A stretch of DNA of 64,000 bases from Pontiella desulfatans (lineage in GTDB: Bacteria > Verrucomicrobiota > Kiritimatiellia > Kiritimatiellales > Pontiellaceae), in assembly GCF_900890425.1 (NCBI RefSeq), contig NZ_CAAHFG010000004.1, positions 366,798 to 430,797 on the forward strand, read 5' to 3'. Numbering within the stretch: position 1 is the stretch's first letter; each line of letters begins with the position of its first letter. Under the pieces are notes generated by a model that worked only from the letters and a program-made list of their open reading frames with translations, searched no databases and was not told the origin of the DNA. The position numbers and the translations under genes were made by a program. Positions 23,550 through 41,333 of the stretch are shown piece after piece.

Positions 23550-24269
23550 ATGAAAAAAACAATAGTAGCACTCATAGCGGTGTCCGGCCTGTTGGCCTCG
23601 GCAAACGCCGAGATCATCGTCAACCTTGATTCCCTCGATGTTAACTCATCGTTCGGCACCAGCACTGGCACCGTAGGTGCGGTGTCCGTCCCGTTGGGCG
23701 GCACTTCGGCGACACACTCGTTCACGGTCAGCGGCTTGGACGTTGCCGAGGACAGCACTGCCAATGACACCGTGACGTTTTATTACGATGTGACTGCGAT
23801 TAATGGCAATATCCAGAATATTACCGGTAACGCATTTTCAATCGGCGTCGATGGAACGGGTGATCCCACCGACCACGAAATCGATCCGGGCGAGGGTCTG
23901 ATCTTCGACAACCTGACGGCAACGGTTGTTTTTGGAGACGCCACCACGGACACGCTTGTCATCAATTCTGCGGCTTTCACGTACTTTGGGTTACGCTATC
24001 CGGGGGGTGGTGATGTGTACAATGTGACCACCTTGGCTGGCGAGGAGATTACCACTAGTTCAACCCTCGATGGCGGTTCTTATGATCCTTATGCCTTCGA
24101 AAGCCCACAGTCAGACTTCAAAGTCGTTTCTAGTGCTGGCGGTGGCTTCGGTGTCGATACCATTCAGGCAACCTTCACTTTGTCAGTCATCCCGGAACCG
24201 GCGACACTCGGTTTGGTGAGTGCATTTGGCGGAGCGGTTCTGTTTATCCGCCGTCGTTTCATGATCTAA
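23550..24269 (+). CDS. PEP-CTERM sorting-domain secreted protein
   Basis: A 239-residue exported protein. It has a signal peptide (MKKTIVALIAVSGLLASANA), a beta-rich middle of unknown function, and a C-terminal sorting tail: PEPATLGL, a hydrophobic helix, then RRRF. Such tails are recognised and cut by exosortases, which attach or release proteins in extracellular-polysaccharide-producing bacteria. No exosortase gene is in this window. AAAAGGAG precedes the ATG. A strong terminator follows 28 bp after the stop, so this is probably a single-gene unit or the last gene of one. Confidence 0.85.
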   Translation: MKKTIVALIAVSGLLASANAEIIVNLDSLDVNSSFGTSTGTVGAVSVPLGGTSATHSFTVSGLDVAEDSTANDTVTFYYDVTAINGNIQNITGNAFSIGVDGTGDPTDHEIDPGEGLIFDNLTATVVFGDATTDTLVINSAAFTYFGLRYPGGGDVYNVTTLAGEEITTSSTLDGGSYDPYAFESPQSDFKVVSSAGGGFGVDTIQATFTLSVIPEPATLGLVSAFGGAVLFIRRRFMI

Positions 24270-24419: not shown

Positions 24420-27400
24420 ATGAAAATCAAAACAACCATTTTGGCCCTGGCCGCTGTGGGGCTGCTGGCCTCGGCGCATGGCAACCTGATCCAGAACAGC
24501 GATTTGGAGGCCGATGGGTATACAGGCACCGGGGTGAATAACTTTACCACGACCATTACCAATTGGTCCGGCACCACGAAAATCAGCACCACGGGCGACA
24601 ACAACACGATTCCGGAGGCCCCGAACACGGTGTTCCGGATGCAGGACACGACGAGTGTCTGGCAGAATTTCTACGCGAATTGGGGGGCAACCAACACGTT
24701 CACGGTCACTCTTAACGCCTGCGAAGTCTATTGGAGATCCGGCGCCGCGGGCGCTAATCTGCTGTGGGTTTCGCTGAGAAGCGCCGCGGGCACGGAATAT
24801 GGCGCGGTTTCGATCGATCTTCAAGGCACGCACGGCGGGAGCGGCGTCACCTATGCCGAGTGGCAATCCAACCAGACGCACACCGTCCAGTTTTCGGGGC
24901 AGGATCTCATCGATGCCGGCGCAACCGCCGGAGAGGAGCTCAGGCTGAATATATATTCGGGGGATATTAACTGGGTCGACAACATTGCGCTGACCGGCGC
25001 GGAAGCCGGGGATCCGCCGACCGTGGGCTATGGCTCTCCGTTCCAAAACGGCATGGTGCTGCAGCGCGGCAAACCGATCAAGATCTGGGGAACGGACGAT
25101 CCAGCCAACACCGTGACGGTGTCGATCAACGGCAACAGCGCCCAGTGCGTGGCCGATGAAAACGGCGACTGGCTGGTTGAACTTCCGGCCATGACGGCGG
25201 GAGGCCCGTATGAGCTGGGCGCGAGCAGCAATGGCAAAACCAATACGCTGTCGGATGTGCTGGTGGGTGACGTCTGGATTGCCTTCGGCCAGTCCAACAT
25301 GGTGCGCCCGTTGAGCGAAATGACCAATAAGCAGAGCTATATCGATGATATTTCCACCAACCGCATGATCCGCTGCCTTAAGATTGCCCTGGATGCCGCC
25401 TTGACGCCCCAGAGCGAGGGAGACATGACCTGGCTCGACAATTCCAACCCAGGAGCCTGGGGTTCGGTCGCGGCCGTATTCGCCCACCAGATGCATGCGG
25501 GCAGCGGCGTGCCGACCGCCGTGATCTGGGCGGGCTGGGGCAGCTCGTCGATCGAAGGCTGGATGCCGAGCCAGATGACCGACGACTTTCCGCACTTCGA
25601 CGAGATGCTGGATCTGTATCAAAGCATCGGCGAATACACCACCGGCGATACGATCTCGTCGCGGGTGCCATCAGGATATGCCTCGAATCTTGAATTTATC
25701 ACGGCCGTGCTGAACGGCGAGGCCACGTGGGATGATAATGCCGAAATTTTCATCCGCACGCGCCCCAACATTATCTACAACCAGCGGATCCACCCGTTGC
25801 TCAACCTGGGCATTTCCGGGTTTGTCTGGTATCAGGGCGAGGCCAACAGCGGCACCCCGGAAAACGTTGCCCAATACGGCTTCACGCTGCCCGCATTCGT
25901 GACGGAATACCGCGAACTCTTCGATCAGGGCGACCTGCCTTTCCTGGGCGTGCAGCTTCCCTCGTACAACAGCACCTACTGGGCTTGGTTCCGCGAATCG
26001 CAGAGTCGCGTCTCGGCGCTGAGCAACGCCTTTGTGGCCGTAACCATCGATACGGGATTGGAGAACAACATCCACCCCTACGACAAGGAGCCGATCGGCC
26101 AGCGCCTTGCGCTGCTGGGCCGCAAATATGCGCTCGGCCAAGATATCGTGGCGCACGGCCCAACGTTCGAGTCCATTTCCATCAGCGGCAACGAAGCCAC
26201 GCTCGGCTTCGGCCACGCCGACGGCCTGACGACCGACGACGGATTGGATCCCGCCGAGTTTGAGTTGGCGGGCGCCGATCAGGTCTGGTACGCCGCGACC
26301 AGCTCTTCCATCAGCGGCACGAACGTGACCGTCAGTTCCAGTTCGGTCGCTGCTCCCGTGGCGGTGCGCTATGCATGGTCGCCCGCCCCGGTGAACACGG
26401 TAAACCTGATCAACAGCGACGGCCTGCCCGCCGCCCCCTTCCGCACCGATGATTGGACACCGACCGACCTGGGCGACCAGGCACCGATGGCCGTGAATGA
26501 CCGCTTTGCCGCATTCACCGATGAACTGCTCAGTGTTCCCGCCCCAGGAATTCTGGAAAACGATATCGATCTCAACCGCGACGATCTTTCCGCTTCGCTG
26601 GTGTCGGATGCAGCATATGGCACACTGGCGCTGGCACCCGACGGCTCGTTCACCTATACCGCCGTTGCCGGCTTTGCCGGATACGATTCCTTTGAGTATG
26701 CCGCCTTCGATGGTGCCCTCTCCGCAACGGCAACCGTGACGGTTGTCGTCCAAGGAGAGGTGGCCGGGGACGATTTGATCCTCAACGGGGATTTTGAGAC
26801 CAACGATGGCGCCACCGGAGGCAACACCTTTGCCAACTTTAACAGCTGGGTGGGATACAACGACGGCGACGCAGTGAATATCCGTAATGATCTGGGCAAT
26901 GGCGACAATGTCGTGGGTACTTCGATCATGCCGCGGCTGATCGCGACCAGCACCACGGGAGACCGAGGCGTATATCAGGATTTTTACGCTGGAACCTGGA
27001 ATAGCGCGCATACGTTCATCATCAGCTTCAATGCCTCCGAAGTCTATTGGAAGGCCGGAGGTGCCGATAATGACGGGGTCACCGTGTCCCTGGGCGATCA
27101 GGATGGCGGCAATGCCGTATCGGTCTATCTCAACCTGGATGGCACCTACGATGCCGACGACGAACCTTACACGACCTGGACCGGCAACCAGACCCACGAA
27201 CTGACCATCACGGGCACGGAGCTGATCGATGCGGGCGTAACCGCCGGGGAAGATCTCAGAATTGACCTCTCCGCAACCTACACCGGCAGCGGAAACTCCA
27301 TTATCTGGGTGGATAATATTTCGGTGATGCTGGAGTCCGATGCCGACGCACCCGAATTTGTGCCGGGTGGCGTGACCGTTTCCAACGGAAACCTCGTTGT

Positions 27401-27572
27401 ATCGTTCGCCGGAACCGTCGGCGGTCCGTACACGATCGAGTTCACCGACGATCTGACCGACACCAACGCATGGAACACGGTCACCAACTGGAGCGCCCTG
27501 CCCGCATCGCCAATGGCCGTCACCCTGCCCACCACCAACCCCGCCGCCTTCTATCGCGTTGGAACGCCGTAA
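24420..27572 (+). CDS. Secreted sialate O-acetylesterase-type (SASA) carbohydrate esterase
   Basis: Exported SGNH-type carbohydrate esterase of 1050 residues, expected to remove acetyl groups from glycans. There is a signal peptide (MKIKTTILALAAVGLLASAHG), then an NGDFE-like beta-sandwich (about 22-180, starting LIQNSDLEAD). The esterase part (about 190-670) has the nucleophile motif GQSNM (S292), VWYQGEANSG and an early FQNGMVLQRG strand typical of this family. A cadherin-like repeat (about 690-780), a second NGDFE module (about 783-970) and a C-terminal domain ending in FYRVGTP follow. GGAAGAG precedes the ATG. The domain family is clear; true substrate (acetylated sialate versus acetyl-xylan or other) is not. 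Confidence 0.88.
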   Translation: MKIKTTILALAAVGLLASAHGNLIQNSDLEADGYTGTGVNNFTTTITNWSGTTKISTTGDNNTIPEAPNTVFRMQDTTSVWQNFYANWGATNTFTVTLNACEVYWRSGAAGANLLWVSLRSAAGTEYGAVSIDLQGTHGGSGVTYAEWQSNQTHTVQFSGQDLIDAGATAGEELRLNIYSGDINWVDNIALTGAEAGDPPTVGYGSPFQNGMVLQRGKPIKIWGTDDPANTVTVSINGNSAQCVADENGDWLVELPAMTAGGPYELGASSNGKTNTLSDVLVGDVWIAFGQSNMVRPLSEMTNKQSYIDDISTNRMIRCLKIALDAALTPQSEGDMTWLDNSNPGAWGSVAAVFAHQMHAGSGVPTAVIWAGWGSSSIEGWMPSQMTDDFPHFDEMLDLYQSIGEYTTGDTISSRVPSGYASNLEFITAVLNGEATWDDNAEIFIRTRPNIIYNQRIHPLLNLGISGFVWYQGEANSGTPENVAQYGFTLPAFVTEYRELFDQGDLPFLGVQLPSYNSTYWAWFRESQSRVSALSNAFVAVTIDTGLENNIHPYDKEPIGQRLALLGRKYALGQDIVAHGPTFESISISGNEATLGFGHADGLTTDDGLDPAEFELAGADQVWYAATSSSISGTNVTVSSSSVAAPVAVRYAWSPAPVNTVNLINSDGLPAAPFRTDDWTPTDLGDQAPMAVNDRFAAFTDELLSVPAPGILENDIDLNRDDLSASLVSDAAYGTLALAPDGSFTYTAVAGFAGYDSFEYAAFDGALSATATVTVVVQGEVAGDDLILNGDFETNDGATGGNTFANFNSWVGYNDGDAVNIRNDLGNGDNVVGTSIMPRLIATSTTGDRGVYQDFYAGTWNSAHTFIISFNASEVYWKAGGADNDGVTVSLGDQDGGNAVSVYLNLDGTYDADDEPYTTWTGNQTHELTITGTELIDAGVTAGEDLRIDLSATYTGSGNSIIWVDNISVMLESDADAPEFVPGGVTVSNGNLVVSFAGTVGGPYTIEFTDDLTDTNAWNTVTNWSALPASPMAVTLPTTNPAAFYRVGTP

Positions 27573-29365: not shown

Positions 29366-30490
29366 ATGAGGATCGGTTTTTCGACATTTGTATTGGATGG
29401 GGGGCAGACGGGGGTTGCGACGTATATCTGTGAGCTGTTGCGCTTTCTGCAATTGGAGGATACGGAAAACACGTATGACCTGCTGATGGCACAGAGGGAT
29501 GCCGACCTGGTTCCGCTCACAAATCCCAACTTCAGCAAAACGGTGGTTCCCTCGATCATCGGCCAGCCGCTGGTCAACCTGGTTTGGCACAACACGGCGT
29601 TGGCGGCGGCGGGCAGGAAGCTCGATGTCCTGCACGTCCCGAGCGCGCGGCGCGTCCCGCTGGTGAAGGGCACCAAGGTGGTGGCTACGGTGCACGACCT
29701 GGCGGCGTTTGCGGTGGAGGCGAAATACGATCCTGCCCGCATGCTCTTCAACCGCAAGCTCGTGCCGGCCATGATCCGCAACGCCGACCACGTCATCACC
29801 GTGAGCGAATTCACTAAAAGCGACATCGTGAAACATGTCGGCTATCCCGAGGAGCGCATCTCGGTGATCTATTCGGGCATCAACCGCGACCTGTTCCAGC
29901 CGGTTGCGGCCGAAGAGGCGCGCGACAGGCTGCAGGTGCTCCACGGATTGGATAAACCGTTCTTCGTCTATGTTTCGCGGCTGGAGCACCCGGCCAAGAA
30001 CCACGTCCGGCTGATCGAAGCCTTCGAACGCTTCAAGTTGCAGAACGACAGTTCGCACCAGCTGGTGCTGGCGGGGGCCGACTGGAACGGGGCGGATGCC
30101 ATCAAGGCGCGGGCGGCGGAGAGCCCGGTGAAGGACGACATCGTGTTCCTCGGCTTCGTTCCGGTTAAATCGCTCCCCCTGCTCTACTCCGGGTGCGACC
30201 TGATGGTCTTCCCCTCGTTGTTCGAGGGTTTCGGGTTCCCGATCGTGGAAGCGCTGGCCTGTGGCGCGCCGGTGGCGTGCTCGAACACGTCCTCGATGAA
30301 GGAGATTGCCGGCGACCTCCTCCCTACCTTCGACCCAACCGATCCGGAGGCGCTATTCCGGAGCATGGAACGAACGGTTGCACAAGGCTGGAGCCCCGAA
30401 ATGCGGACTCGCGGCACGGATTATGCTCTTACGTTCGATTGGCGGAAAACCGCCGAACGTGTTTTGGAGGTATATCGGTCGCTGACCTGA
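29366..30490 (+). CDS. Glycosyltransferase family 4 (GT-B fold)
   Basis: Transfers a sugar from a nucleotide donor to a glycan acceptor at the cytoplasmic face of the membrane. The 374-residue protein starts MRIGFSTFVLDGGQTGV, with an acceptor-side Rossmann half, a middle HVITVSEFTKSDI linker and the donor-binding half with VFPSLFEGFGFPIVEALACG (the conserved E-x7-E pair) and NTSSMKEIAGD. The start at 29366 matches the family N-terminus; an upstream in-frame ATG at 29330 adds 12 poorly conserved residues. The next gene, a sensor kinase, begins 13 bp after its stop, so it is probably the first gene of the signalling/glycosylation operon. Confidence 0.9.
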   Translation: MRIGFSTFVLDGGQTGVATYICELLRFLQLEDTENTYDLLMAQRDADLVPLTNPNFSKTVVPSIIGQPLVNLVWHNTALAAAGRKLDVLHVPSARRVPLVKGTKVVATVHDLAAFAVEAKYDPARMLFNRKLVPAMIRNADHVITVSEFTKSDIVKHVGYPEERISVIYSGINRDLFQPVAAEEARDRLQVLHGLDKPFFVYVSRLEHPAKNHVRLIEAFERFKLQNDSSHQLVLAGADWNGADAIKARAAESPVKDDIVFLGFVPVKSLPLLYSGCDLMVFPSLFEGFGFPIVEALACGAPVACSNTSSMKEIAGDLLPTFDPTDPEALFRSMERTVAQGWSPEMRTRGTDYALTFDWRKTAERVLEVYRSLT

Positions 30491-30503
30491 CCGGGTTTGT
30501 TGT

Positions 30504-33500
30504 ATGAAACGGGGAGCCACAACCCTTTTATGGATGATTGTCGTCGCGGCACTGGTCGTGACGGGCGTGCTCGTCTATCTGGAAATGCCGAAGGAGCAAC
30601 CGAAGCTCGAACTCACCCGCAAGGAGTTCACCTGGCTGCAGGAAAATGCCGAAAACATCCGCCTTGCCCCGTTGCCTGATTCCCGGCCGGTCGATTTCAT
30701 CGACGATAAAGGACGGCACGCCGGGCTGACGGCCGACTACCTCCGGCTGATCGAAAACAAGCTGGGGCTCCGCTTCAGGATTGTCCAGTGCGAAAACTGG
30801 GCCGAGATCCTCGAAAAACTGCGCAATCAGGAGATCGATCTGGTTGGCTCCGTGCAGAACACGCCCGAACGGCAGGGTTTCCTGCGCTTCACCGAGCCCT
30901 ATTTCCGCCTGCCGACCGTCATCCTGACCCGCCAGGACTGGAGCGAGGAATTCAACATCGACAACCTGCAGGGCATGCCGGTGGTGGTGGTGGAAGGTTC
31001 GGCGATCCACGGGCACGTCGCCAAGCTCCACCCGGAATACAACCTGGTTCCGGTCAAGGATGCCGGCTCGGGGTTCCGGATGGTTTCGTTCAGCGAAGCC
31101 GACGCGATGGTGGCCGACCTGGGCGTGGCCTCGCACTATATCGACACCTATGCCATCGCCAACCTGCGGGTCGCCGGCGATATCGACTATCCGTGGGATC
31201 TTTGCCTGGCCTCGCGCAAGGATTGGCCCCTGCTCAACTCCATTCTCAACAAGGCGCTGGCGCACATCACCCTCGAGCAGCGGCGCGCCATCAAAAAGCA
31301 GTGGATCACCCTCGACGACACGGTACGCATTCCGCGCGAAGATTATCTGAAGGTGGTCGGAGGCATCCTGATTGTCACCTTGCTGGCGATTGGCTCGGTG
31401 ATGTTCTGGAACCAGACCCTGCGCAAGCAGGTGACCCACCGCACCGAGGAGCTGGGGCAGGTCCGCCAGAGCCACGCGCAGGCCACACGCGCGCTCGGCG
31501 AAAGCGAAGAGCGCTTCCGGGCCCTAGTGGAATCGTCGAGCGACATGATCTGGGAAATGGATTTTTTCGGCAGCTATCTTTATGTGAGCCCGCGTGTGCG
31601 CGAAATCCTCGGCTACACCCCCGAGGAGCTGATTGGCAAGAGCTCGTTTTCGTTCATGGACAAGGAGGAATCCGCCCGCAACCTGGCCGCCTTGCGAACG
31701 AGTACCGTCAACTACACCTTCGACTGTGAAATCAACACCTTCATCCATAAGAACGGGCAAAAGGTGATCCTCGAATCGAGCGGCCGGGCCTTTGCAAACA
31801 ACAAGGGCGAAGTGGCCGGTTTCCGGGGCGTGGCGCGCAACATCACCGAGCGCATCGAAAACGAGGGCGCCCTGCGGCGTTCGGAGGAGCGGTTCCGCAA
31901 CCTGGTGGAAACCTCTTCCGACTGGATCTGGGAGGTCGATAACGCCGGCAACTACACCTATGCCAGCCCGCAGGTCGAAACCCTGCTGGGCTTTGCGCCG
32001 AACGAGCTGATCGGCCGCCACTTCACGGAAAACATGCCCCCGCAGGATGCCGAATCATCCCGGTCGCAGTTTGCCGGGATCGTTGCCCGGGGCGGGGCCA
32101 TCCATGCCAGCGTTTCCACCAACCGGCACAAGGACGGGCGAACGGTTATGCTGGAGACGAGCGCGGTGCCGTTCTACGACAAGGATTGGAACATCCAGGG
32201 TTACCGCGGCATTGTCCGCGACATCACCGACCGCGTCGCTTTCGAGAAGGAGCTCGAATTCGAGCGCAACCTCTTCCGCACCTTCATGGAACATGCGCCC
32301 GACCTGATCTATTTCAAGGACGCGAAGGGGCGCTTCATCGAGGTTAACTCCGCCAAGGCCAAGGAAGTGCAACTCAGCCCCGAGGATTTGATCGGCCATA
32401 CCGATTTCGACTATCTTCCGCAGGAACAGGCGCAGGTGCGGCTGGAGGATGAACGGGAGGTCATGCGGACCCGCAAGCCGCTCCAGAAGGAGGAGCTTGC
32501 CACCACACCCAGCGGGGATTGCTGGTATCTCACAACCAAGGTGCCGCACCATGACGGGGAAGGAAACGTGGTTGGCACGTTCGGCACCTCCTGGAACATT
32601 ACCTACCGCAAACTGGCCGAAGAACAGCTCCGCCAGCTCCGCGCCCTGCTCAGCAACACGATTGACTCCATGCCCTCCATCCTGGTCGGGGTCGATTCGG
32701 GAGGCACGGTGATCCAATGGAACCGTCAGGCGGTATCGATTACCGGAATTCAACCGGTCGATGCCATCGGGAGGCCCCTGCGCGAGGCCTTCCCCGGCTT
32801 GGTCAAGGAAATGGTCAAGGTGGAACGGGCCCTGCGCGAGCGAGCGCCGCAACAGGAGGAACGCATCCGCATCCAGGAGAACGGGCGCACCCGCTACAAC
32901 GATATCACCGTATTCCCCCTGCTCGACGGCGAAACCGAGGGCGCCGTCATCCGAGTCGACGACGTGACCGACCGCGTCATGATCGAAGACAGCATCCGAA
33001 ACATTGTCGAGGGGGTCGCCGCCGTTGGCCGCCGCTTCTTCAAATCGATGGTCGACCAGCTGGCCAAGACCCTCGATGCCGATTTTACCTTCATCAGCGA
33101 ATTCATCGGCGAAGAACGGACGGCCATGCGCACCATCGCGGTTTCCGACAGGGCGCAAACGGGCGCGAACTTCGAGTTCGATCTCGCCAACACCCCTTGC
33201 GAGCTCGTGCTGAAGGGCGATTCGTGCCTCTATATCGAACGGGCGCAGGAGCGCTATCCCGACACCCAGATGCTGCATAACCTGGACATTGATGGATACA
33301 TCGGCATCCCGCTGGTCGATTCCGAGGAGAATGCGCTGGGAATGATGGTGGCCATGTATCGCAAACCGGTGGAACAGGTTGAGTTCGCCACTTCGATCAT
33401 GCAGGTTTTCGCCGGGCGCACCGCGGCCGAGCTGGAGCGCCTCCAGGCAACAAAGGAACTCGTTGCGCTGCAGAACCTGATGGAAAACATCATCAACTCC

Positions 33501-34637
33501 ATGCCTTCGATCATTGTCGGTGTGGACGCGGATCGCCGCGTGATGCAATGGAACCACCAAGCCGAAAGCCTTTCCGGAATGGATGCGGCGCGGGCGCACG
33601 GCCAACCCCTCGACCGCGTTTTCCCCGACCTCGGCAACGAAATGAACCGCGTGCTCGAAACCATGGGCTCCCACGGTGTGCAGCACCACGAGCGGATCCA
33701 CTGCTCCATGAAGGGCGAGCCGCACATGGTCGATGTCACGATCTATCCGATTACCACCGATGGTTCGGAAGGCGCCGTGATCCGGATCGACGATGTGACC
33801 GACCGCGTGCGCATCGAGGAAATGATGATCCAATCGGAAAAGATGATGTCGGTCGGCGGCCTGGCGGCCGGCATGGCACACGAGATCAACAATCCGTTGG
33901 CGGGCATCCTCCAGAACCTGCAGGTGATGCGCAACCGGGTGACGCACAACACCGACCGCAATATGGACGCGGCGCGGGATGCAGGCACATCGCTCGAAGC
34001 CATCCAGAACTATATGGAGGCGCGCGGCTTGCTGAAGATGATGGAATCCATCTCCGAGGCCGGACGGCGTGCCGCCAAGATTGTCGACAACATGCTCAGC
34101 TTTAGCCGCAAGGACGAGGCGCACTTTGCCCCGAACGATCTCGAGGAGATCATCGAGCGGAGCATCGAGCTGGCCTCGAACGACTACAACCTGAAAAAAC
34201 GGTTCGATTTCAGGCATATCCGCATCGATCGGGATTTCGATGAGCTCGAACCCATCCCGTGCGAGGGCAGCCAGGTGCAGCAGGTGATGCTCAACCTGCT
34301 GTCGAACAGCGCCCAGGCCATGGCCGCCCGCCCGGATGAGGCCCCGGAACCCCGGATTGTGGTTCGGTTGAAAAAAGAGAAGGACATGGCGCTGATCGAG
34401 GTGGAGGACAACGGCCCCGGCATGGATGAGGAAACCCGCAAGCGCGCATTCGAGCCGTTCTTCACCACCAAGGAGGTGGGGCACGGTACTGGATTGGGCT
34501 TGTCGGTCTCCTATTTCATCATCACCGAAAACCACGGCGGAACCATGAATGTGCACTCCGCCCCGGGCCGCGGCGCCCGTTTCAGCATCCGGATTCCGTA
34601 TGAACACCGCATGGAACGTTGGGGGTTGCGCCTGTGA
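30504..34637 (+). CDS. Giant sensor histidine kinase (SBP-TM-PAS5-GAF-HK)
   Basis: A 1377-residue membrane sensor kinase. The order is: membrane helix (about 8-26); periplasmic SBP_bac_3-type ligand-binding domain (about 45-270, with FTEPYFRLPTVILT); second helix (about 285-304); coiled coil; PAS domains at about 335-450, 456-575, 590-710 and 718-830; GAF-like domain (about 840-975); fifth PAS (about 995-1105); HisKA with phospho-acceptor H1126 in GMAHEINNPLAG; and a HATPase domain with NLLSNSAQA, DNGPGMDEE and GHGTGLGLS. It has no receiver domain of its own; three separate receivers follow directly. PAS4 and PAS5 resemble each other closely (SMPSILVGVD / SMPSIIVGVD), suggesting internal duplication. 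The ligand is unknown; SBP_bac_3 folds usually bind amino acids or similar small solutes. Confidence 0.95.
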   Translation: MKRGATTLLWMIVVAALVVTGVLVYLEMPKEQPKLELTRKEFTWLQENAENIRLAPLPDSRPVDFIDDKGRHAGLTADYLRLIENKLGLRFRIVQCENWAEILEKLRNQEIDLVGSVQNTPERQGFLRFTEPYFRLPTVILTRQDWSEEFNIDNLQGMPVVVVEGSAIHGHVAKLHPEYNLVPVKDAGSGFRMVSFSEADAMVADLGVASHYIDTYAIANLRVAGDIDYPWDLCLASRKDWPLLNSILNKALAHITLEQRRAIKKQWITLDDTVRIPREDYLKVVGGILIVTLLAIGSVMFWNQTLRKQVTHRTEELGQVRQSHAQATRALGESEERFRALVESSSDMIWEMDFFGSYLYVSPRVREILGYTPEELIGKSSFSFMDKEESARNLAALRTSTVNYTFDCEINTFIHKNGQKVILESSGRAFANNKGEVAGFRGVARNITERIENEGALRRSEERFRNLVETSSDWIWEVDNAGNYTYASPQVETLLGFAPNELIGRHFTENMPPQDAESSRSQFAGIVARGGAIHASVSTNRHKDGRTVMLETSAVPFYDKDWNIQGYRGIVRDITDRVAFEKELEFERNLFRTFMEHAPDLIYFKDAKGRFIEVNSAKAKEVQLSPEDLIGHTDFDYLPQEQAQVRLEDEREVMRTRKPLQKEELATTPSGDCWYLTTKVPHHDGEGNVVGTFGTSWNITYRKLAEEQLRQLRALLSNTIDSMPSILVGVDSGGTVIQWNRQAVSITGIQPVDAIGRPLREAFPGLVKEMVKVERALRERAPQQEERIRIQENGRTRYNDITVFPLLDGETEGAVIRVDDVTDRVMIEDSIRNIVEGVAAVGRRFFKSMVDQLAKTLDADFTFISEFIGEERTAMRTIAVSDRAQTGANFEFDLANTPCELVLKGDSCLYIERAQERYPDTQMLHNLDIDGYIGIPLVDSEENALGMMVAMYRKPVEQVEFATSIMQVFAGRTAAELERLQATKELVALQNLMENIINSMPSIIVGVDADRRVMQWNHQAESLSGMDAARAHGQPLDRVFPDLGNEMNRVLETMGSHGVQHHERIHCSMKGEPHMVDVTIYPITTDGSEGAVIRIDDVTDRVRIEEMMIQSEKMMSVGGLAAGMAHEINNPLAGILQNLQVMRNRVTHNTDRNMDAARDAGTSLEAIQNYMEARGLLKMMESISEAGRRAAKIVDNMLSFSRKDEAHFAPNDLEEIIERSIELASNDYNLKKRFDFRHIRIDRDFDELEPIPCEGSQVQQVMLNLLSNSAQAMAARPDEAPEPRIVVRLKKEKDMALIEVEDNGPGMDEETRKRAFEPFFTTKEVGHGTGLGLSVSYFIITENHGGTMNVHSAPGRGARFSIRIPYEHRMERWGLRL

Positions 34638-34708
34638 CGCCCATGAGAAATGGCTTGGGTTTGCCCGATGGTTCGTTTTAGCATGCCGGGCTGCTGGAGA
34701 TTATGCGC

Positions 34709-35134
34709 ATGAACGACTATTCAAACATACGGGTGCTGGTGGTGGACGATGAGCCGGGCATTCGCGATAGCCTGTCCGCCTTCCTGGACGATTATGGCTT
34801 CGATGCCATGGGCTGCGGAAGCACCGAGGAGGCGCGCGATCTGATGATCGAGAATACCTTCGATGTCTGCGTGGTAGACCTTCGCCTGCCGGGCCTGAGC
34901 GGCGAGGATTTGATCCTGCTGGCCAGCAAACGCTTCCCCAGCCAGCGCTACATCATCCATACCGGTTCGATTTCCTATAATCTTCCCCAAGAGCTCCGGG
35001 CCATCGGCATGAGGCCGGAACATGTGTTCCACAAACCGGTGCGGGTCTTGAGCATGCTGGTGAAGCGCATCAAGGAGCTGGCTGAAAACCCTGCGGCCCA
35101 ACTGCCTTTGCCCAAACTCCAGCAAGCCGAATAG
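34709..35134 (+). CDS. Single-domain response regulator (receiver) 1
   Basis: CheY-like receiver of 141 residues without an output domain. The acidic pocket is VVDDEPG, the phospho-acceptor aspartate is in CVVDLRLPGLSG, and the conserved lysine is in FHKPVRVL. A threonine/serine switch is present as HTGSIS. The start at 34709 aligns with the paralogue downstream; an ATG 6 bp upstream is also possible. It lies 71 bp after the sensor kinase and is very probably one of its phosphorylation targets. Confidence 0.9.
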   Translation: MNDYSNIRVLVVDDEPGIRDSLSAFLDDYGFDAMGCGSTEEARDLMIENTFDVCVVDLRLPGLSGEDLILLASKRFPSQRYIIHTGSISYNLPQELRAIGMRPEHVFHKPVRVLSMLVKRIKELAENPAAQLPLPKLQQAE

Positions 35135-35200
35135 TCCCACTATGGACTTGGGTTGTGACCACCGAACATTATAGTCTCGAGGTTCAATAAAGGAATCTTG

Positions 35201-35596
35201 ATGGCTGACTACTCTTCAATACGTGTTCTGGTGATCGATGACGAGCCGGCGATCTGCTCCAGCTTGTCCGCCTTTCTCGAGGACTATGGTTTCCGCGCAT
35301 CCACGGCGGAAAGTGCCGAGGAAGCTCTCGACCTGATGAAAAGCAACGTCTACGACGTCTGCATCGTCGATATGCGCCTGCCGGGCATGAGCGGGGAAGA
35401 CATGATCATCCAGGCGCGCGAGCGCTACCCGGAGCAACGCCACATCATCTATACCGGTTCGATCTCCTACAACCTTTCCGAAAAACTCAAGGAGCTGGGC
35501 ATGCGCCCGGAGCACGTCTTCCTGAAGCCGGTCCGCGTACTCTCCCTGCTCGTCAAATGCATCAAGGAACTCGCGCCCGACACCCAGGCGAAATGA
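35201..35596 (+). CDS. Single-domain response regulator (receiver) 2, paralogue of 1
   Basis: CheY-like receiver of 131 residues, close paralogue of the preceding gene over its whole length (VIDDEP, IVDMRLPGMSGED, YTGSISYNLS, FLKPVRVL). The phospho-acceptor aspartate and switch lysine are intact. AAAGGA lies about 8 bases before the ATG. The gene ends overlapping the next receiver (ATGA), giving translational coupling to the downstream glycan genes. Confidence 0.9.
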   Translation: MADYSSIRVLVIDDEPAICSSLSAFLEDYGFRASTAESAEEALDLMKSNVYDVCIVDMRLPGMSGEDMIIQARERYPEQRHIIYTGSISYNLSEKLKELGMRPEHVFLKPVRVLSLLVKCIKELAPDTQAK

Positions 35597-36213
35597 CCCC
35601 GGAACAACCACAGACCAAAGTGCTGGTGATCGAAGACGAAGCCCCCGTCCGCGATAGTTTCCACAATTTCCTCGAAGACCAGGGCTATGCCGTTTTCGAG
35701 GCAACCAATGGGCGCGAAGGAATCGAACAGTTCGACCAATGCCAGCCCGACGTCGTTTTGATCGACCTGCGCATGCCGGTCATGAACGGGCAGCAGGTGC
35801 TTGAACGGCTGGCCCCGAAAGCTCCGGACACCCCCCTGATCATTATCTCCGGCACCGGGCACATCGGCGATACCATCGAGGCGCTGCACCTCGGTGCGTG
35901 GGACTACCTGCTCAAACCGGTGGCCGATCTCGACATGCTCGACCACGCCATTACGGCGGCGCTCGAGCGCGCCCGGCTGATCGCGGAAAACCGCGAATAC
36001 CAAAAAGGGCTCGAAATACGGGTTGAGGAGCGTACACGCGAACTGAACGCGAAGGTGGAGGAACTGACCCGCTTCAACCGCATGGCGGTGGGGCGCGAAC
36101 GGCGCATCATCGAGCTCAAACGGCAAATCAACAACCTGCAGGTTGAACTCGGGCGGGAGCCCCAATACAAGTCGCCGCAAATCATCGACGAAGATCCCTC
36201 CCTGCTCGACTAG
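35593..36213 (+). CDS. Response regulator with C-terminal coiled coil
   Basis: A 206-residue protein: receiver domain (about 1-125; VIEDEAPVRDS, phospho-acceptor in LIDLRMPVMNGQ, ISGTGH, LLKPVADL) followed by a long coiled coil (ERTRELNAKVEEL and IIELKRQINNLQVEL) and a short acidic tail. There is no DNA-binding, GGDEF or phosphatase output, so the coiled coil itself may dimerise or contact a partner. It starts inside the stop of receiver 2 and ends 6 bp before the GT2 gene. Confidence 0.9.
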   Translation: MTPEQPQTKVLVIEDEAPVRDSFHNFLEDQGYAVFEATNGREGIEQFDQCQPDVVLIDLRMPVMNGQQVLERLAPKAPDTPLIIISGTGHIGDTIEALHLGAWDYLLKPVADLDMLDHAITAALERARLIAENREYQKGLEIRVEERTRELNAKVEELTRFNRMAVGRERRIIELKRQINNLQVELGREPQYKSPQIIDEDPSLLD

Positions 36214-36219
36214 TCCGCC

Positions 36220-37026
36220 ATGCCCGACTCCGTAGCCATCATCATGCGCGCAAAGGACGAAATGCCGTATGTCCGGCAGGCCCTGGACATGCTCAAGCGG
36301 CAAACCTTCACCGATTTCGAACTCTGCGCCGTTGATTCGGGCTCCACCGACGGAACGCTCGAGGAACTCGAAACCCATTGCGGAAACCTTGTCCGTATTG
36401 CCCCGGGCGACTATGCCCCGGGAAAAGTGCTCAACGACGCCATTGCGCGAACCTCGTCGGGCATCGTTGTTTTCCTGAATGCCGATGCCGTTCCCCAATC
36501 CGACGATTGGCTCGAACGCCTGCTGGCCCCGTTGCACGAAGGCCGGGCCGATGCCACCTTCAGCAAGCAGGTTGCCCGGGCCGATGCACGGTTCATTGTG
36601 GCCTACGACTATGAGCGGGCCTACAACCCGGCCAGGATCGAACCCGGCTTCTTCTCCGCCGTCGCCTGTGCGTTCCGGCGCGGGCTTTGGGAAAAGCACC
36701 GGTTCCGGGAGGAGGGCTACGCCGAAGACGTTGCCTGGGCGAAGGCATGTGTTGCCGATGGCGCCCGGTTCCAGCTATTGGGAGATTCGGTGGTCGAGCA
36801 CTCGCACAACTACTCCCTCAAGGGTTTGTTTGAAAAGCGGCGCCGCCAGGCGGTCACCTTCAACGAGGTGCCGAACCTCGGCAAACAGGTTGCGAAGTGC
36901 TTCCGGGAACTTGTCCGCGACCTGCTCCATGCCACCCGGAAACTCAAGCTCCACACCGTCCCCTACAACCTCGCCTACCGCATCACCATCCACCGCGCAA
37001 TCCACCAAGGGCACAAGCACCGATGA
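36220..37026 (+). CDS. Glycosyltransferase family 2 (GT-A fold)
   Basis: A 268-residue inverting sugar transferase, cytoplasmic or membrane-associated through its basic C-terminus. The N-terminus reads VAIIMRAKDEMPYVRQAL, with the nucleotide-binding VDSGSTDGTLEEL, a metal-binding-like NADAVP (in place of classic DxD) and an acidic EDVAWAKA for the catalytic base region. The C-terminal 60 residues are basic and amphipathic. It is tightly linked to receiver 3 (6-bp gap) and overlaps the next gene by 4 bp, so its expression is locked to the signalling genes. The sugar and acceptor cannot be told. Confidence 0.9.
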   Translation: MPDSVAIIMRAKDEMPYVRQALDMLKRQTFTDFELCAVDSGSTDGTLEELETHCGNLVRIAPGDYAPGKVLNDAIARTSSGIVVFLNADAVPQSDDWLERLLAPLHEGRADATFSKQVARADARFIVAYDYERAYNPARIEPGFFSAVACAFRRGLWEKHRFREEGYAEDVAWAKACVADGARFQLLGDSVVEHSHNYSLKGLFEKRRRQAVTFNEVPNLGKQVAKCFRELVRDLLHATRKLKLHTVPYNLAYRITIHRAIHQGHKHR

Positions 37027-38000
37027 GCAAATATACCATCAGGGGATCGGAAGCATTGGATGCGCGGATCGATATTCATCTCGAACATATCGCCAAAACC
37101 GTGGCGCCCTATTGCGAGGCCGTCGTGCTGCTGGGCGGCTATGGGCGGGGCGAAGGCACGCCGTTCATCAAACCCGATGGTTCGCAGGCCCCGTTCAACG
37201 ACTATGACCTGGTCGTCATTGTCGATACGCTCAACACGGCGGTGCGCCTACAGTTCAACACGCTGGAAAAACAGCTGACCGAGGATCTCGGCCTGCCCGT
37301 CGATCTCTGCCCCTATGCCAAGGCGGAGCTGCCCTCCCGCGAGTTTTCCCTGCTGAACTATGAAATGAAACATGGCCACATGGTCATCCGGGGCGATGAA
37401 CATGTGCTGGACGCCATGCCGAACTATGCCCACGATGCCATTCCGCTTTCGGAAGGCGCGCGCCTGCTGCTCAACCGCGGCAAGCTGCTGCTCGACATCA
37501 AGCGGCGCCTTTCCAATCCCGAGCCCCTCTTCGCGGTGGAGAGGATCCGCCTCATCAAGTTTATCCACAAGGCGCTGCTGGCCTTCGGCGACGCCGCCCT
37601 GCTCGCCGCCGGGCAATACGACATTTCCTATTCCGTCAAAAAAGAGCGGATCCTTAAAATCGGGGAATGCCCGGGTCGAGAGCGGATTGTCCAAGGCTAC
37701 CTCCAGGCGGTTGAACTCAAGGAATGGGGCGACTTCCAAGCCTTGGACGAGTACGGCATCGAATCCGAATTCAGCGGGGTTTGCGAACAATTCCTGCGCT
37801 TCATGCCGTGGTACCGACATCAATATTCAAGGCGGGAGTGCTCCATCCCCAAGGCGGTTGCACTGAACCTGAAATGGAACCGGCGCCTTTGCACGCAACA
37901 TCCGCGCGTTCAGCTCTACGATGCGATCATCGAGCTTTTGCAGGATAAGGCCGCCATGTCGCACCAACGCTTCTATGAACTGCAACGGAGGTTTTCCTGA
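37023..38000 (+). CDS. Minimal nucleotidyltransferase-fold protein
   Basis: A 325-residue protein with a nucleotidyltransferase core near the N-terminus: LLGGYGRGEGTP followed by FNDYDLVVIV (the G-rich helix and D-x-D metal site) and a third acidic site probably in DLCPYAKAELP. The remaining 200 residues are helical and unrecognised. Such folds add nucleotides to proteins, RNA, antibiotics or phospho-sugars, so the substrate is open. It starts inside the GT2 stop codon (ATGA) and ends overlapping the next gene (TGATG), implying a stoichiometric set of three enzymes. Confidence 0.8.
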   Translation: MSKYTIRGSEALDARIDIHLEHIAKTVAPYCEAVVLLGGYGRGEGTPFIKPDGSQAPFNDYDLVVIVDTLNTAVRLQFNTLEKQLTEDLGLPVDLCPYAKAELPSREFSLLNYEMKHGHMVIRGDEHVLDAMPNYAHDAIPLSEGARLLLNRGKLLLDIKRRLSNPEPLFAVERIRLIKFIHKALLAFGDAALLAAGQYDISYSVKKERILKIGECPGRERIVQGYLQAVELKEWGDFQALDEYGIESEFSGVCEQFLRFMPWYRHQYSRRECSIPKAVALNLKWNRRLCTQHPRVQLYDAIIELLQDKAAMSHQRFYELQRRFS

Positions 38001-39205
38001 TGAAAAAGGAAAAGCTCAGCCTGTTCCTGTTCATCGATGCCTTTGGCTGGGAAGTGAAGCAGCGCCATCCCGAATTCCTGCAAGGCCTGATCCTGGAGAG
38101 CAAGCCGCTCGAAACCATCCTGGGCTACTCCTCCGCCTGCGACCCCTCCATCATCTCCGGCCTCACCCCGGCCGACCACAAGCTGTGGTCGTCCTACTAC
38201 TACGATCCGGAAGGCTCCCCCTTCAAGTGGACGCGTCCCCTCGCCCTTTTGCCCGACTTCATTTTCCGGCGCGGCCGCGTGCGCAACCAGCTAAGCAAAT
38301 GGATCAAGAAACGGTGCGGCTTCACCGGCTATTTCCAGCTTTACGCCGTCCCCTTCAAGCAACTGCACCTGTTCAACTATGCCGAGCAAAAACGTATCTG
38401 GGAGCCCGGAGGCCTCCCGCAAGGCGACTCCATCTTCGACCGCATGGCCCGCAAAGGCATCCCCTACTCCACCCATGACAGCGCGTTTCCGGACGAGGTT
38501 CGCATCGAAAAACTGCTCCAACACATCGAACAGCAGTCCATCGACTTCGCCTACTGCTCCCTCGGAAAACTCGACGGCCTGATGCATGCCGAAGGCATCG
38601 ACTCCCCGAAGATTGGGCCATTGATGGACTGGTACGACGCGCAGTTGCGCAAATTGATGGCCACGGCGGAAGAACAGTATGAAACGGTGTCCTTCTACCT
38701 CTTCACCGACCACGGCATGCACAACGTCGCCCGTTCCTACGACCTCATCACCGACATCGAAGCCCTGGGCCTGGAATGGAACAAGGACTATGCCGCCTTC
38801 TACGACTCCACCATGGCCCGCTTCTGGATCCTCGATGAAAAGGCTCGCGCCCCCATCACGGAATACCTGAACGGGCATTCACAGGGTCGGTTGCTGACCG
38901 ATGCAGAGCTCAAAAAGTTCGGCGTCTGGTTCGAGGATGGCCAATATGGCGACCTGGTGTTCCTCATGAACTCCGGCACCCAGATTATTCCAAGTTTCAT
39001 GGGCGCCAAGCCCTGCAAAGGCATGCACGGCTACCACCCTGACGATCCCGATTCGCTCGCGTCGCTCTCATCGAACAAGCCCATCCCCGAATCCATCACC
39101 AAAATCCAGCACATCCACCAGCTCATGCTGACCGAACTGGCCTTGGAGGGCGAGCCAACCCCGGCAGAAACAGCTCGGACAGAGCCTCGCCCTCCAAAGG
39201 AATGA
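38000..39205 (+). CDS. Alkaline phosphatase-superfamily phosphodiesterase/phosphatase
   Basis: A 401-residue soluble enzyme of the alkaline phosphatase/nucleotide pyrophosphatase superfamily, using two metal ions. Metal and nucleophile sites are all visible: FIDAFGWEV near the N-terminus, a serine nucleophile candidate in CDPSIISGLTP, LGKLDGLMHAEG, LFTDHGMHN and GMHGYHPDD. No signal peptide, so it acts in the cytoplasm, unlike most secreted family members. Position after the GT2 and nucleotidyltransferase genes suggests it trims or transfers a phospho-group on the product they make. AMP or sugar-phosphate chemistry is possible but not shown. Confidence 0.85.
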   Translation: MKKEKLSLFLFIDAFGWEVKQRHPEFLQGLILESKPLETILGYSSACDPSIISGLTPADHKLWSSYYYDPEGSPFKWTRPLALLPDFIFRRGRVRNQLSKWIKKRCGFTGYFQLYAVPFKQLHLFNYAEQKRIWEPGGLPQGDSIFDRMARKGIPYSTHDSAFPDEVRIEKLLQHIEQQSIDFAYCSLGKLDGLMHAEGIDSPKIGPLMDWYDAQLRKLMATAEEQYETVSFYLFTDHGMHNVARSYDLITDIEALGLEWNKDYAAFYDSTMARFWILDEKARAPITEYLNGHSQGRLLTDAELKKFGVWFEDGQYGDLVFLMNSGTQIIPSFMGAKPCKGMHGYHPDDPDSLASLSSNKPIPESITKIQHIHQLMLTELALEGEPTPAETARTEPRPPKE

Positions 39206-39594: not shown

Positions 39595-39650
39595 TTTTAA
39601 GTATATCATCCAACCACCACGATCGTGGTGGTTGGATGATATACTTAAAA
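39595..39650. repeat. 56-bp perfect palindrome upstream of bcp
   Basis: Two 28-base arms with zero spacer, centred at 39622/39623 (CACGATCGTG core, TTTTAAGTATATCATCC outer part). There is a T-run on its left flank (TCTTTTTTAA), so on the minus strand it is not terminator-like, and it stands 74 bp before the bcp start codon. It has no sequence likeness to the 14501 palindrome but the same architecture. Confidence 0.9.
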
Positions 39651-40341: not shown

Positions 40342-40908
40342 TTAATTTAAACTGTAGCCGCATGAGGCAAACCAACCTTGAGCATCCGCCGCACTAACGC
40401 ACCCTAAGGCAGCGCCGATCGCATCAAACAGAGATTCCAGGGAGCGCGCTTTTTCCCCGCGAAGCAATTGCTTTACTTTGCTCCACATCTTTTCGATGGG
40501 ATTGAGATCAGGACTGTAGGGCGGAAGGAACCAAACCTCTGCCCCAGCTTCTTCGATCAACTGTAACGAAGCCTTGTCCTTATGAGCCGAGAGGTTATCA
40601 AGCACAACGATATCGCCCACTCGAAGAGTCGGAGCTAGAACCTGTTCGACATAGGCACGGAATACATCGCCGCTTGTGGCGGCATCAATCGCCATGCAGG
40701 CTGTTTCTCCGTTGAAACGAATGGAGGAGATCATGGTGGTGGTACACCAATGGCCATGCGGGGCGTGATCGTAAGCCCGCTCATTTTTCGGCGAGCGTCC
40801 GTACAGCCGAGTCATATTGGTCTTGGCTCCAGCCTCATCAATAAAGACCAACCGAGCAATGTCAAGTTGCCCTTGCATGGCCATCCACTCAGCCCGTGCG
40901 AGTTTCAC
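40342..40908 (-). CDS. IS630 transposase, DDE catalytic part (orfB)
   Basis: Carries the DDE nuclease core: first aspartate in FIDEAGAKT, second in VVLDNLSAHKD, and the closing glutamate in PPYSPDLNPIEKMWS. Its natural N-terminus is supplied by the upstream frame. The open frame continues 5' of the nominal start as KKTLHASEQGREDVKLARAEW-type sequence, reached after a run of eight A residues (40941-40948). The frame relation needs a +1 (or -2) shift. All three catalytic residues are intact, so the element may be active. Confidence 0.9.
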   Translation of the reverse strand: MKLARAEWMAMQGQLDIARLVFIDEAGAKTNMTRLYGRSPKNERAYDHAPHGHWCTTTMISSIRFNGETACMAIDAATSGDVFRAYVEQVLAPTLRVGDIVVLDNLSAHKDKASLQLIEEAGAEVWFLPPYSPDLNPIEKMWSKVKQLLRGEKARSLESLFDAIGAALGCVSAADAQGWFASCGYSLN

Positions 40909-41278
40909 GTCTTCGCGCCCTTGCTCGCTGGCGTGAAGCGTTTTTTTTAAAGCTCATCCCCATGTCCTTGAGTACATAGTGAATGGCAGGCAGCGTGCAA
41001 TCGAGCTCCAGTTGCTCTCGGATCTCCCACAACGTGATATCAGGTTGCCGATCAATCAGCGTTTTCATCTGCTTCCGGTGCTCTTGGGTGAAGTAGGGTT
41101 TTCTTCCTGAATGGCTGTGAAGCGGGGCGATATCGCCGGTTCGCTTCCGTTGCGAGAGGAGCTTCTTTACCATACCAAGCGATACCTTGTATCGGTCAGC
41201 AATGTCCTGCCGGGTTCCTTCTCCGGCATCGTAGGTGGCCAGAATTCTCTGGCGTAGATCCAGTGATAGAGTGCTCAT
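40889..41278 (-). CDS. IS630 transposase, helix-turn-helix part (orfA)
   Basis: A 129-residue frame with the DNA-binding half of the transposase: an N-terminal helix-turn-helix (LRQRILATYDAGEGTRQDIA and YKVSLGMVKKLLSQ) and a second one (HRKQMKTLIDRQPDITLWEI). It ends in an out-of-frame, arginine-rich tail after the A8 tract that would be replaced by the catalytic part through frameshifting, as known in several IS630 members. Confidence 0.88.
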   Translation of the reverse strand: MSTLSLDLRQRILATYDAGEGTRQDIADRYKVSLGMVKKLLSQRKRTGDIAPLHSHSGRKPYFTQEHRKQMKTLIDRQPDITLWEIREQLELDCTLPAIHYVLKDMGMSFKKNASRQRARARRRETRTG

Positions 41279-41333
41279 GCAAAGAACTCTACACAATGAC
41301 TCATCTAATGGCTATAGAATTATTTAAAATGCT

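Follow-up and report, generated by a model that had tools for sequence, protein, structure and literature searches.

Post-translational control of exopolysaccharide synthesis by a two-component system has been described in Myxococcus xanthus, where the kinase DifE phosphorylates the single-domain receiver EpsW, through which the transferase EpsZ is stimulated, and where DifD serves as a phosphate sink (PMC12802240, PMC4671073). In Vibrio fischeri, the regulators SypE and SypA are encoded within the syp polysaccharide locus itself (PMC4517449, PMC10120452). Here we analysed a block of eight genes at positions 29366-39205 of a 64,000-nucleotide stretch of contig NZ_CAAHFG010000004.1 (the window) from the 8.66 Mb genome of the marine bacterium Pontiella desulfatans, in which GT4 and GT2 glycosyltransferases, a nucleotidyltransferase (NTase) and an NPP-type phosphodiesterase are combined with a sensor histidine kinase and three stand-alone receivers (REC1, REC2 and REC3). 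With a probability of roughly 0.55, we regard the block as an exopolysaccharide (surface glycan) cassette into which a signalling unit was inserted in Pontiellaceae, and whose phosphorylated receivers would alter polysaccharide synthesis post-translationally. Two-component control of exopolysaccharide synthesis is a known general kind of regulation, and the novelty lies less in this single operon than in a conserved, unnamed NTase/phosphodiesterase cassette to which receivers have been attached repeatedly.

The locus shares with the Myxococcus system a stand-alone receiver tied to an exopolysaccharide pathway and a single kinase that would feed more than one single-domain receiver. However, the Myxococcus target is a large phosphoglycosyl transferase, whereas none of the eight block proteins has a Pfam match to Bac_transf, and the Myxococcus kinase is chemosensory while that of Pontiellaceae is of the Venus-flytrap/PAS type and encoded in the same operon. 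Moreover, post-translational control is experimentally established in Myxococcus, while in Pontiellaceae the target and the control, including phosphotransfer from kinase to receivers and the sign of the effect, are putative. The resemblance to SypE/SypA extends to related Verrucomicrobial loci, since STAS and SpoIIE/HATPase partner-switch proteins were found in 12 of 64 related loci, and one genome (G138) encodes a REC-SpoIIE-HATPase protein between NTase and phosphodiesterase; by contrast, the block in the window contains no STAS or SpoIIE protein according to Pfam.

The block consists of two parts, a conserved enzyme core (GT4, GT2, NTase and phosphodiesterase) and a kinase-receiver insertion between GT4 and GT2 that occurs in Pontiellaceae only, with the kinase and one to three receivers. 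In another family (f2) of the same taxonomic order, the four core genes lie side by side and neither a kinase nor a receiver gene interrupts them (G003, G029, G032, G081, G130). They also occur together in G004, in G098 (where GT2 is separated from NTase by other sequence) and in metagenome-assembled genomes (MAGs) of Lentisphaerae, of the Planctomycetes-Verrucomicrobia-Chlamydiae (PVC) group and of Chlamydia relatives (L100-L103, L112), and more loosely in many phyla, mostly within exopolysaccharide loci. Among 195 genomes of the phylum, the NTase was present in 51, the phosphodiesterase in 53 and both in 50 (Fisher P 1e-41), and at genus level (n=107) 24 genera had both, one the NTase only and two the phosphodiesterase only (Fisher P 2e-20), both tests being uncorrected for phylogeny. 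Of the 38 non-Pontiellaceae loci with both GT2 and NTase, 25 have the two within 300 bp of each other, and two deltaproteobacterial MAGs (L116, a member of the Myxococcales, and L118) encode them as one fused protein, of 695 and 713 residues, with the phosphodiesterase gene directly 3'. The catalytic residues of GT2 are invariant in 34 sequences. The core is a functional unit, and GT2 and NTase would share one glycan intermediate. No fusion of a receiver to NTase, GT2 or phosphodiesterase was seen in the fetched loci.

This polysaccharide cassette centred on the NTase/phosphodiesterase pair is not recognised as such by public family libraries: we found no curated model specific to either family, and no paper on the enzyme set. 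A GTDB-wide scan nevertheless returned 396 relatives of the phosphodiesterase, which range from Kiritimatiellales and Chlamydiae to Shewanella, Myxococcales and Cloacimonadota; the best 80 of them include Shewanella benthica, Planctomycetes, Acidobacteria and Elusimicrobia besides the Chlamydiae, Myxococcales and Cloacimonadota. In the same scan, the closest named relatives of the locus were Pontiella sulfatireligans and other Pontiellaceae. The gene order GT4-kinase-REC-GT2-NTase-phosphodiesterase recurs in the Pontiellaceae contigs that are long enough to show it, and the block is therefore more than a chance arrangement. In several Pontiellaceae relatives (L032, L035, L036, L081, L092), GT2 and NTase are separated by about 6-8 kb of glycan-type genes without a change in the flanking order; the inserted genes include an ABC exporter, a GNAT/FemAB-like protein, a carbamoyltransferase and a further GT2.

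The genomic context of the core points to Wzx/Wzy-type exopolysaccharide or capsule synthesis, because homologues of Wzx, Wzy, Wzz, Wza, phosphoglycosyl transferase or WecG are encoded in 32 of 38 long non-Pontiellaceae loci, 31 of which have two or more of them (query proteins were confirmed by Pfam, with the Wzz and Wzy labels assigned partly by sequence appearance, one Wzz-like query having no Pfam match). Lentisphaera marina additionally carries an exosortase. The assignment of the core enzymes to surface or exopolysaccharide synthesis is thus supported, as the original prediction had proposed, and we infer a surface-glycan role in P. desulfatans as well, although the cassette in the window differs from these homologous loci in lying apart from export genes and in having its own kinase and receivers. 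Pontiella strains are reported to produce N-sulfated, glycosaminoglycan-like exopolymers in stationary phase (PMC7356697), of which the locus is at most a candidate maker. A link to the putative sulfated glycosaminoglycan cluster of P. sulfatireligans (PMC7356697) found no support around the copy of the locus in that species, which has the glycan-type insert (L081): no sulfotransferase was recognised within 10 kb (by open reading frame starts). Elsewhere in the window, positions 23550-24269 encode a protein with a PEP-CTERM-like C-terminal sorting signal, adjoined at 24420-27572 by a SASA-type carbohydrate esterase with Ig/cadherin-like domains, in a genome that has one exosortase.

The inserted kinase has a Pfam content of SBP_bac_3, five PAS stretches, HisKA and HATPase. 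A GAF domain, which had been predicted alongside the SBP and PAS domains, gave no Pfam match at E<=0.01, although residues about 840-970 look GAF-like by eye. The kinase contains neither a receiver nor an HPt domain, and no HPt protein was found among the block proteins by Pfam (HPt proteins elsewhere in the genome were not searched for). Because the kinase is not hybrid and the block lacks an HPt protein, we describe the system as a kinase with three parallel receivers and not as the phosphorelay it had been taken for; a strict phosphorelay within the block is rejected. In all three receivers the Asp that accepts the phosphate is intact, as are the conserved T/S and K residues, and none has a DNA-binding or other output domain in Pfam, in line with the earlier description. 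REC2 is present in all 13 Pontiellaceae contigs covering the spot and shows the strongest conservation among the block proteins, with a median identity of 84% within the family, compared to 73% for GT4, 65% for the kinase, 63% for GT2, 62% for NTase and 72% for the phosphodiesterase, and the adjacency of receiver and GT2 is kept across Pontiellaceae. Within the class, close relatives of REC2 (E<=1e-15) were confined to one of 69 genera searched. Therefore, the neighbourhood comparison in PVC genomes that the original prediction had suggested yielded the very result it had named as refuting, an enzyme cassette widespread without these receivers, and we reject the receivers as obligatory partners of the enzymes. 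Its broader idea that receivers act directly on the enzymes remains plausible, given that receivers recur beside the enzymes and that EpsW-EpsZ provides a precedent (PMC12802240).

Outside Pontiellaceae, a receiver gene adjoins the phosphodiesterase gene in 22 of 64 loci from Verrucomicrobiia, other Kiritimatiellales, Lentisphaerae and Cloacimonadota, which is far above the background in genomes of this kind, where receivers account for about 1-3% of genes (at an assumed density of about one gene per kb; naive binomial P <1e-11, ignoring kinship within Verrucomicrobiia). The arrangements vary considerably. Stand-alone receivers lie 5' of the phosphodiesterase in Verrucomicrobiia, several overlapping its start codon by 4 bp, while family f2 and one Lentisphaerae MAG have a receiver with a C-terminal extension 3' of it; in addition, G009 encodes a HATPase-REC protein 5' of it. 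In a Cloacimonadota locus (L121:8759-9925), REC, DUF4388 and STAS are joined in a single chain directly 5' of the phosphodiesterase gene, combining the receiver and partner-switch themes. The adjacent receivers fall into recognisably different subfamilies, and those of full length retain the phosphorylation site, a pattern that speaks for repeated recruitment beside the phosphodiesterase. The sensors differ as well, from the Venus-flytrap/PAS kinase of Pontiellaceae to STAS/SpoIIE switches and an H-NOX-associated hybrid kinase: genes for H-NOX haem-NO-binding proteins occur in four Verrucomicrobiales exopolysaccharide loci (L131, L133, L146, L158), one of which (L131) encodes a kinase of the architecture HNOBA-PAS-GAF-HisKA-HATPase-REC-REC-HPt. 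Together with the hybrid kinases and STAS/SpoIIE proteins, H-NOX might constitute a nitric-oxide switch for polysaccharide. Since distant bacteria place unrelated receivers beside the same enzymes, these data suggest that signalling proteins switch the making of the polymer directly and not only via gene expression.

On the model of EpsW, DifE and DifD, the Pontiellaceae kinase would probably sense a periplasmic ligand and the cytoplasmic state and phosphorylate REC2 as its main output. REC1 would compete for phosphate, either as another acceptor or as a sink, and REC3 would provide a second output via its coiled coil. The phosphorylated receivers would then bind an enzyme of the polysaccharide pathway and change synthesis after translation, which is plausible by the same analogy. 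If receivers do target the enzymes in this way, control of exopolysaccharide synthesis by two-component systems after translation, so far represented by EpsW-EpsZ of Myxococcus, would be much more widespread, and the core enzymes would offer new candidate targets.

Several observations weigh against this proposal. The core is present in other genera without these receivers, and six of the 38 long loci, including the compact cassettes that are closest (L096, L097, L099), have none of the exopolysaccharide assembly genes sought. The export genes of the P. desulfatans genome lie elsewhere (Poly_export at three places and the exosortase), and receiver adjacency in part reflects shared descent within Verrucomicrobiia. 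Kinase and receivers could instead form a separate pathway that is co-expressed by position in a shared operon and acts on proteins elsewhere in the cell, which we consider possible, if rather doubtful. Such a pathway would fit the occurrence of the enzymes without kinase and receivers as well as the several kb of unrelated genes that split GT2 from NTase in other Pontiellaceae, where the receivers are thus no longer strictly coupled to the last two enzymes, but it leaves unexplained why the receiver stays next to GT2 throughout the family and why different receivers accompany the phosphodiesterase in several lineages. That the receivers signal to a DNA-binding regulator or to a sigma or anti-sigma system elsewhere, and so act on the transcription of polysaccharide genes, appears unlikely: the genome has about 65 receiver matches and related loci contain STAS/SpoIIE partner switches, which are often tied to sigma control, yet the block encodes no DNA-binding regulator or HPt protein, and stand-alone receivers such as CheY and EpsW usually work through protein contact. 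A true multi-step phosphorelay, in which the receivers exchange phosphate via an HPt protein encoded elsewhere, is highly improbable; several stand-alone receivers without output domain and the hybrid kinase with HPt in a Verrucomicrobial locus of the same enzymes would agree with it, while the non-hybrid kinase and the block without HPt do not.

The fold of both unnamed enzymes was predicted by AlphaFold2 from alignments of window and locus sequences. The NTase model (pLDDT 91.7) is nearest, over both domains, to the aminoglycoside adenylyltransferases AadA/ANT(3'')(9) and AAD(9) (Foldseek E 6e-6), with Z 12.3 and 3.6 A over 217 residues to an AadA/ANT(3'')(9)-type structure, and HEPN/MNT proteins rank next. 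The two-domain fold and the nucleotidyltransferase motif are shared with these enzymes, whereas sequence identity reaches only about 11-14% and the NTase belongs to polysaccharide loci, in places fused to GT2, and the common fold is no proof of function. The motif GGYGRGE...ND.[DE]...[DE] is conserved across 58 diverse members (GG in 55, D60 in 54, D/E62 and D/E94 in all 58), while the NTase itself scores 20.1 bits against PF01909, just below the cut-off of 21, and 12 of the 58 members match at E<=0.01. The phosphodiesterase, originally described as an alkaline-phosphatase-superfamily enzyme, can be narrowed to the NPP type: its model (pLDDT 95.9) has the NPP/ENPP fold (best match 7n1s, E 1e-17), and six metal ligands and the serine nucleophile Ser44 are invariant in 51 sequences (conserved residues D13, S44, D192, H196, D237, H238, H343). 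The alignment with ENPP7 and Xanthomonas NPP agrees over the aligned stretches, and the fold, metal ligands and nucleophile position are common to Xanthomonas NPP and ENPP1-7, but the enzyme has Ser where the aligned ENPPs have Thr, shares about 15% identity with them and represents a separate subfamily tied to polysaccharide loci. In the model the first catalytic strand begins at residue 3 and no signal peptide is evident, so that the enzyme should act in the cytoplasm.

The most likely role of the NTase/phosphodiesterase pair is to attach a phosphodiester to the glycan intermediate of GT2 and take it off again, or to process it, and an AMP-type modification is possible judging from the modelled folds. 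In a more specific and improbable version, the NTase would cap the lipid-linked GT2 intermediate with AMP or another nucleoside monophosphate and the phosphodiesterase would uncap it, with phosphorylated receivers choosing between the two, so that the glycan's own reversible nucleotidylation would gate polysaccharide output; we know of no description of this chemistry for bacterial polysaccharides. The NTase might also be a LicD-like phosphotransferase that moves a phospho-alcohol (e.g. phosphocholine, phosphoethanolamine, ribitol phosphate) from a CDP-activated donor onto the glycan, to be removed by the phosphodiesterase. A nucleotidyltransferase fold fused to or adjoining GT2, and ENPP6/7-type phosphocholine esterases among the structural matches of the phosphodiesterase, would suit this role, which is decidedly unlikely given that the nearest NTase structures are AadA/ANT adenylyltransferases and HEPN/MNT proteins, that none of the 58 members has a LicD Pfam match and that no gene for CDP-alcohol synthesis was noticed in the block; the LicD family is also missing among the NTase structural matches listed, although this by itself says little against a LicD-like identity. 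We consider it very unlikely that the two enzymes write and erase protein AMPylation and thereby control glycosyltransferases without acting on the glycan. GlnE adenylyltransferase and AMPylating HEPN/MNT pairs are among the NTase structural matches and the phosphodiesterase has the fold of AMP-releasing enzymes, but aminoglycoside-modifying enzymes with their small-sugar substrates rank first, and invariance within polysaccharide loci is just as compatible with a biosynthetic step. Anti-phage defence was rejected as the best explanation despite a weak 'GT4-conflict' match of GT4 and an NTase fold common to HEPN/MNT and Hailong HalB, as there was no PADLOC match and the neighbourhoods are of the exopolysaccharide type.

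Table 1. Genes of the Pontiella desulfatans block and the open reading frame that follows it (positions in the window)
Feature	Position	Strand	Characteristics
GT4 glycosyltransferase, first core gene	29366..30490	+	Pfam Glycos_transf_1 2e-30, Glyco_transf_4; orthologues 5' of GT2-NTase-phosphodiesterase in other families
Sensor histidine kinase, 1377 aa	30504..34637	+	N-terminal transmembrane segment, periplasmic SBP_bac_3 Venus-flytrap domain, PAS repeats, HisKA, HATPase
REC1, stand-alone receiver	34703..35134	+	Pfam Response_reg; 67% identical to REC2; presence variable in Pontiellaceae
REC2, stand-alone receiver	about 35201..35596	+	Pfam Response_reg
REC3, receiver with helical/coiled-coil tail of ~80 residues	35593..36213	+	Response_reg; presence variable in Pontiellaceae
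GT2 glycosyltransferase, NTase partner	36220..37026	+	Pfam Glycos_transf_2 1e-18
NTase, helical C-terminal domain	37023..38000	+	AadA/ANT(3'')(9)-like fold
NPP-type phosphodiesterase (alkaline phosphatase superfamily)	38000..39205	+	PF01663; NPP fold
Small conserved open reading frame, 73 aa	39236..39457	+	3' of phosphodiesterase; 79-95% identical in Pontiellaceae

The eight genes are all intact, run in one direction and are tightly packed, just as first reported (Table 1). The overlaps noted at that time are exact, with ATGA shared by REC2/REC3 at 35593-35596 and by GT2/NTase at 37023-37026 and TGATG by NTase/phosphodiesterase at 37998-38002, and so is the 6-bp spacing between REC3 and GT2. 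Wider gaps separate GT4 from the kinase (13 bp), the kinase from REC1 (65 bp) and REC1 from REC2 (about 65 bp), and scans for promoters and terminators gave matches at chance level. The small open reading frame 3' of the phosphodiesterase had no informative match in a family library search and may be part of the operon. Further downstream, a perfect 56-bp palindrome (39595-39650; 28-nt arms, no loop) lies just 5' of a bacterioferritin-comigratory-type peroxidase gene (39724), and the two copies of its arm sequence in the window are the palindrome's own two arms. It is followed on the minus strand by an IS630-type transposase (40342-41296) that is split over two overlapping frames of 135 and 188 aa (HTH_Tnp_IS630, DDE_3).

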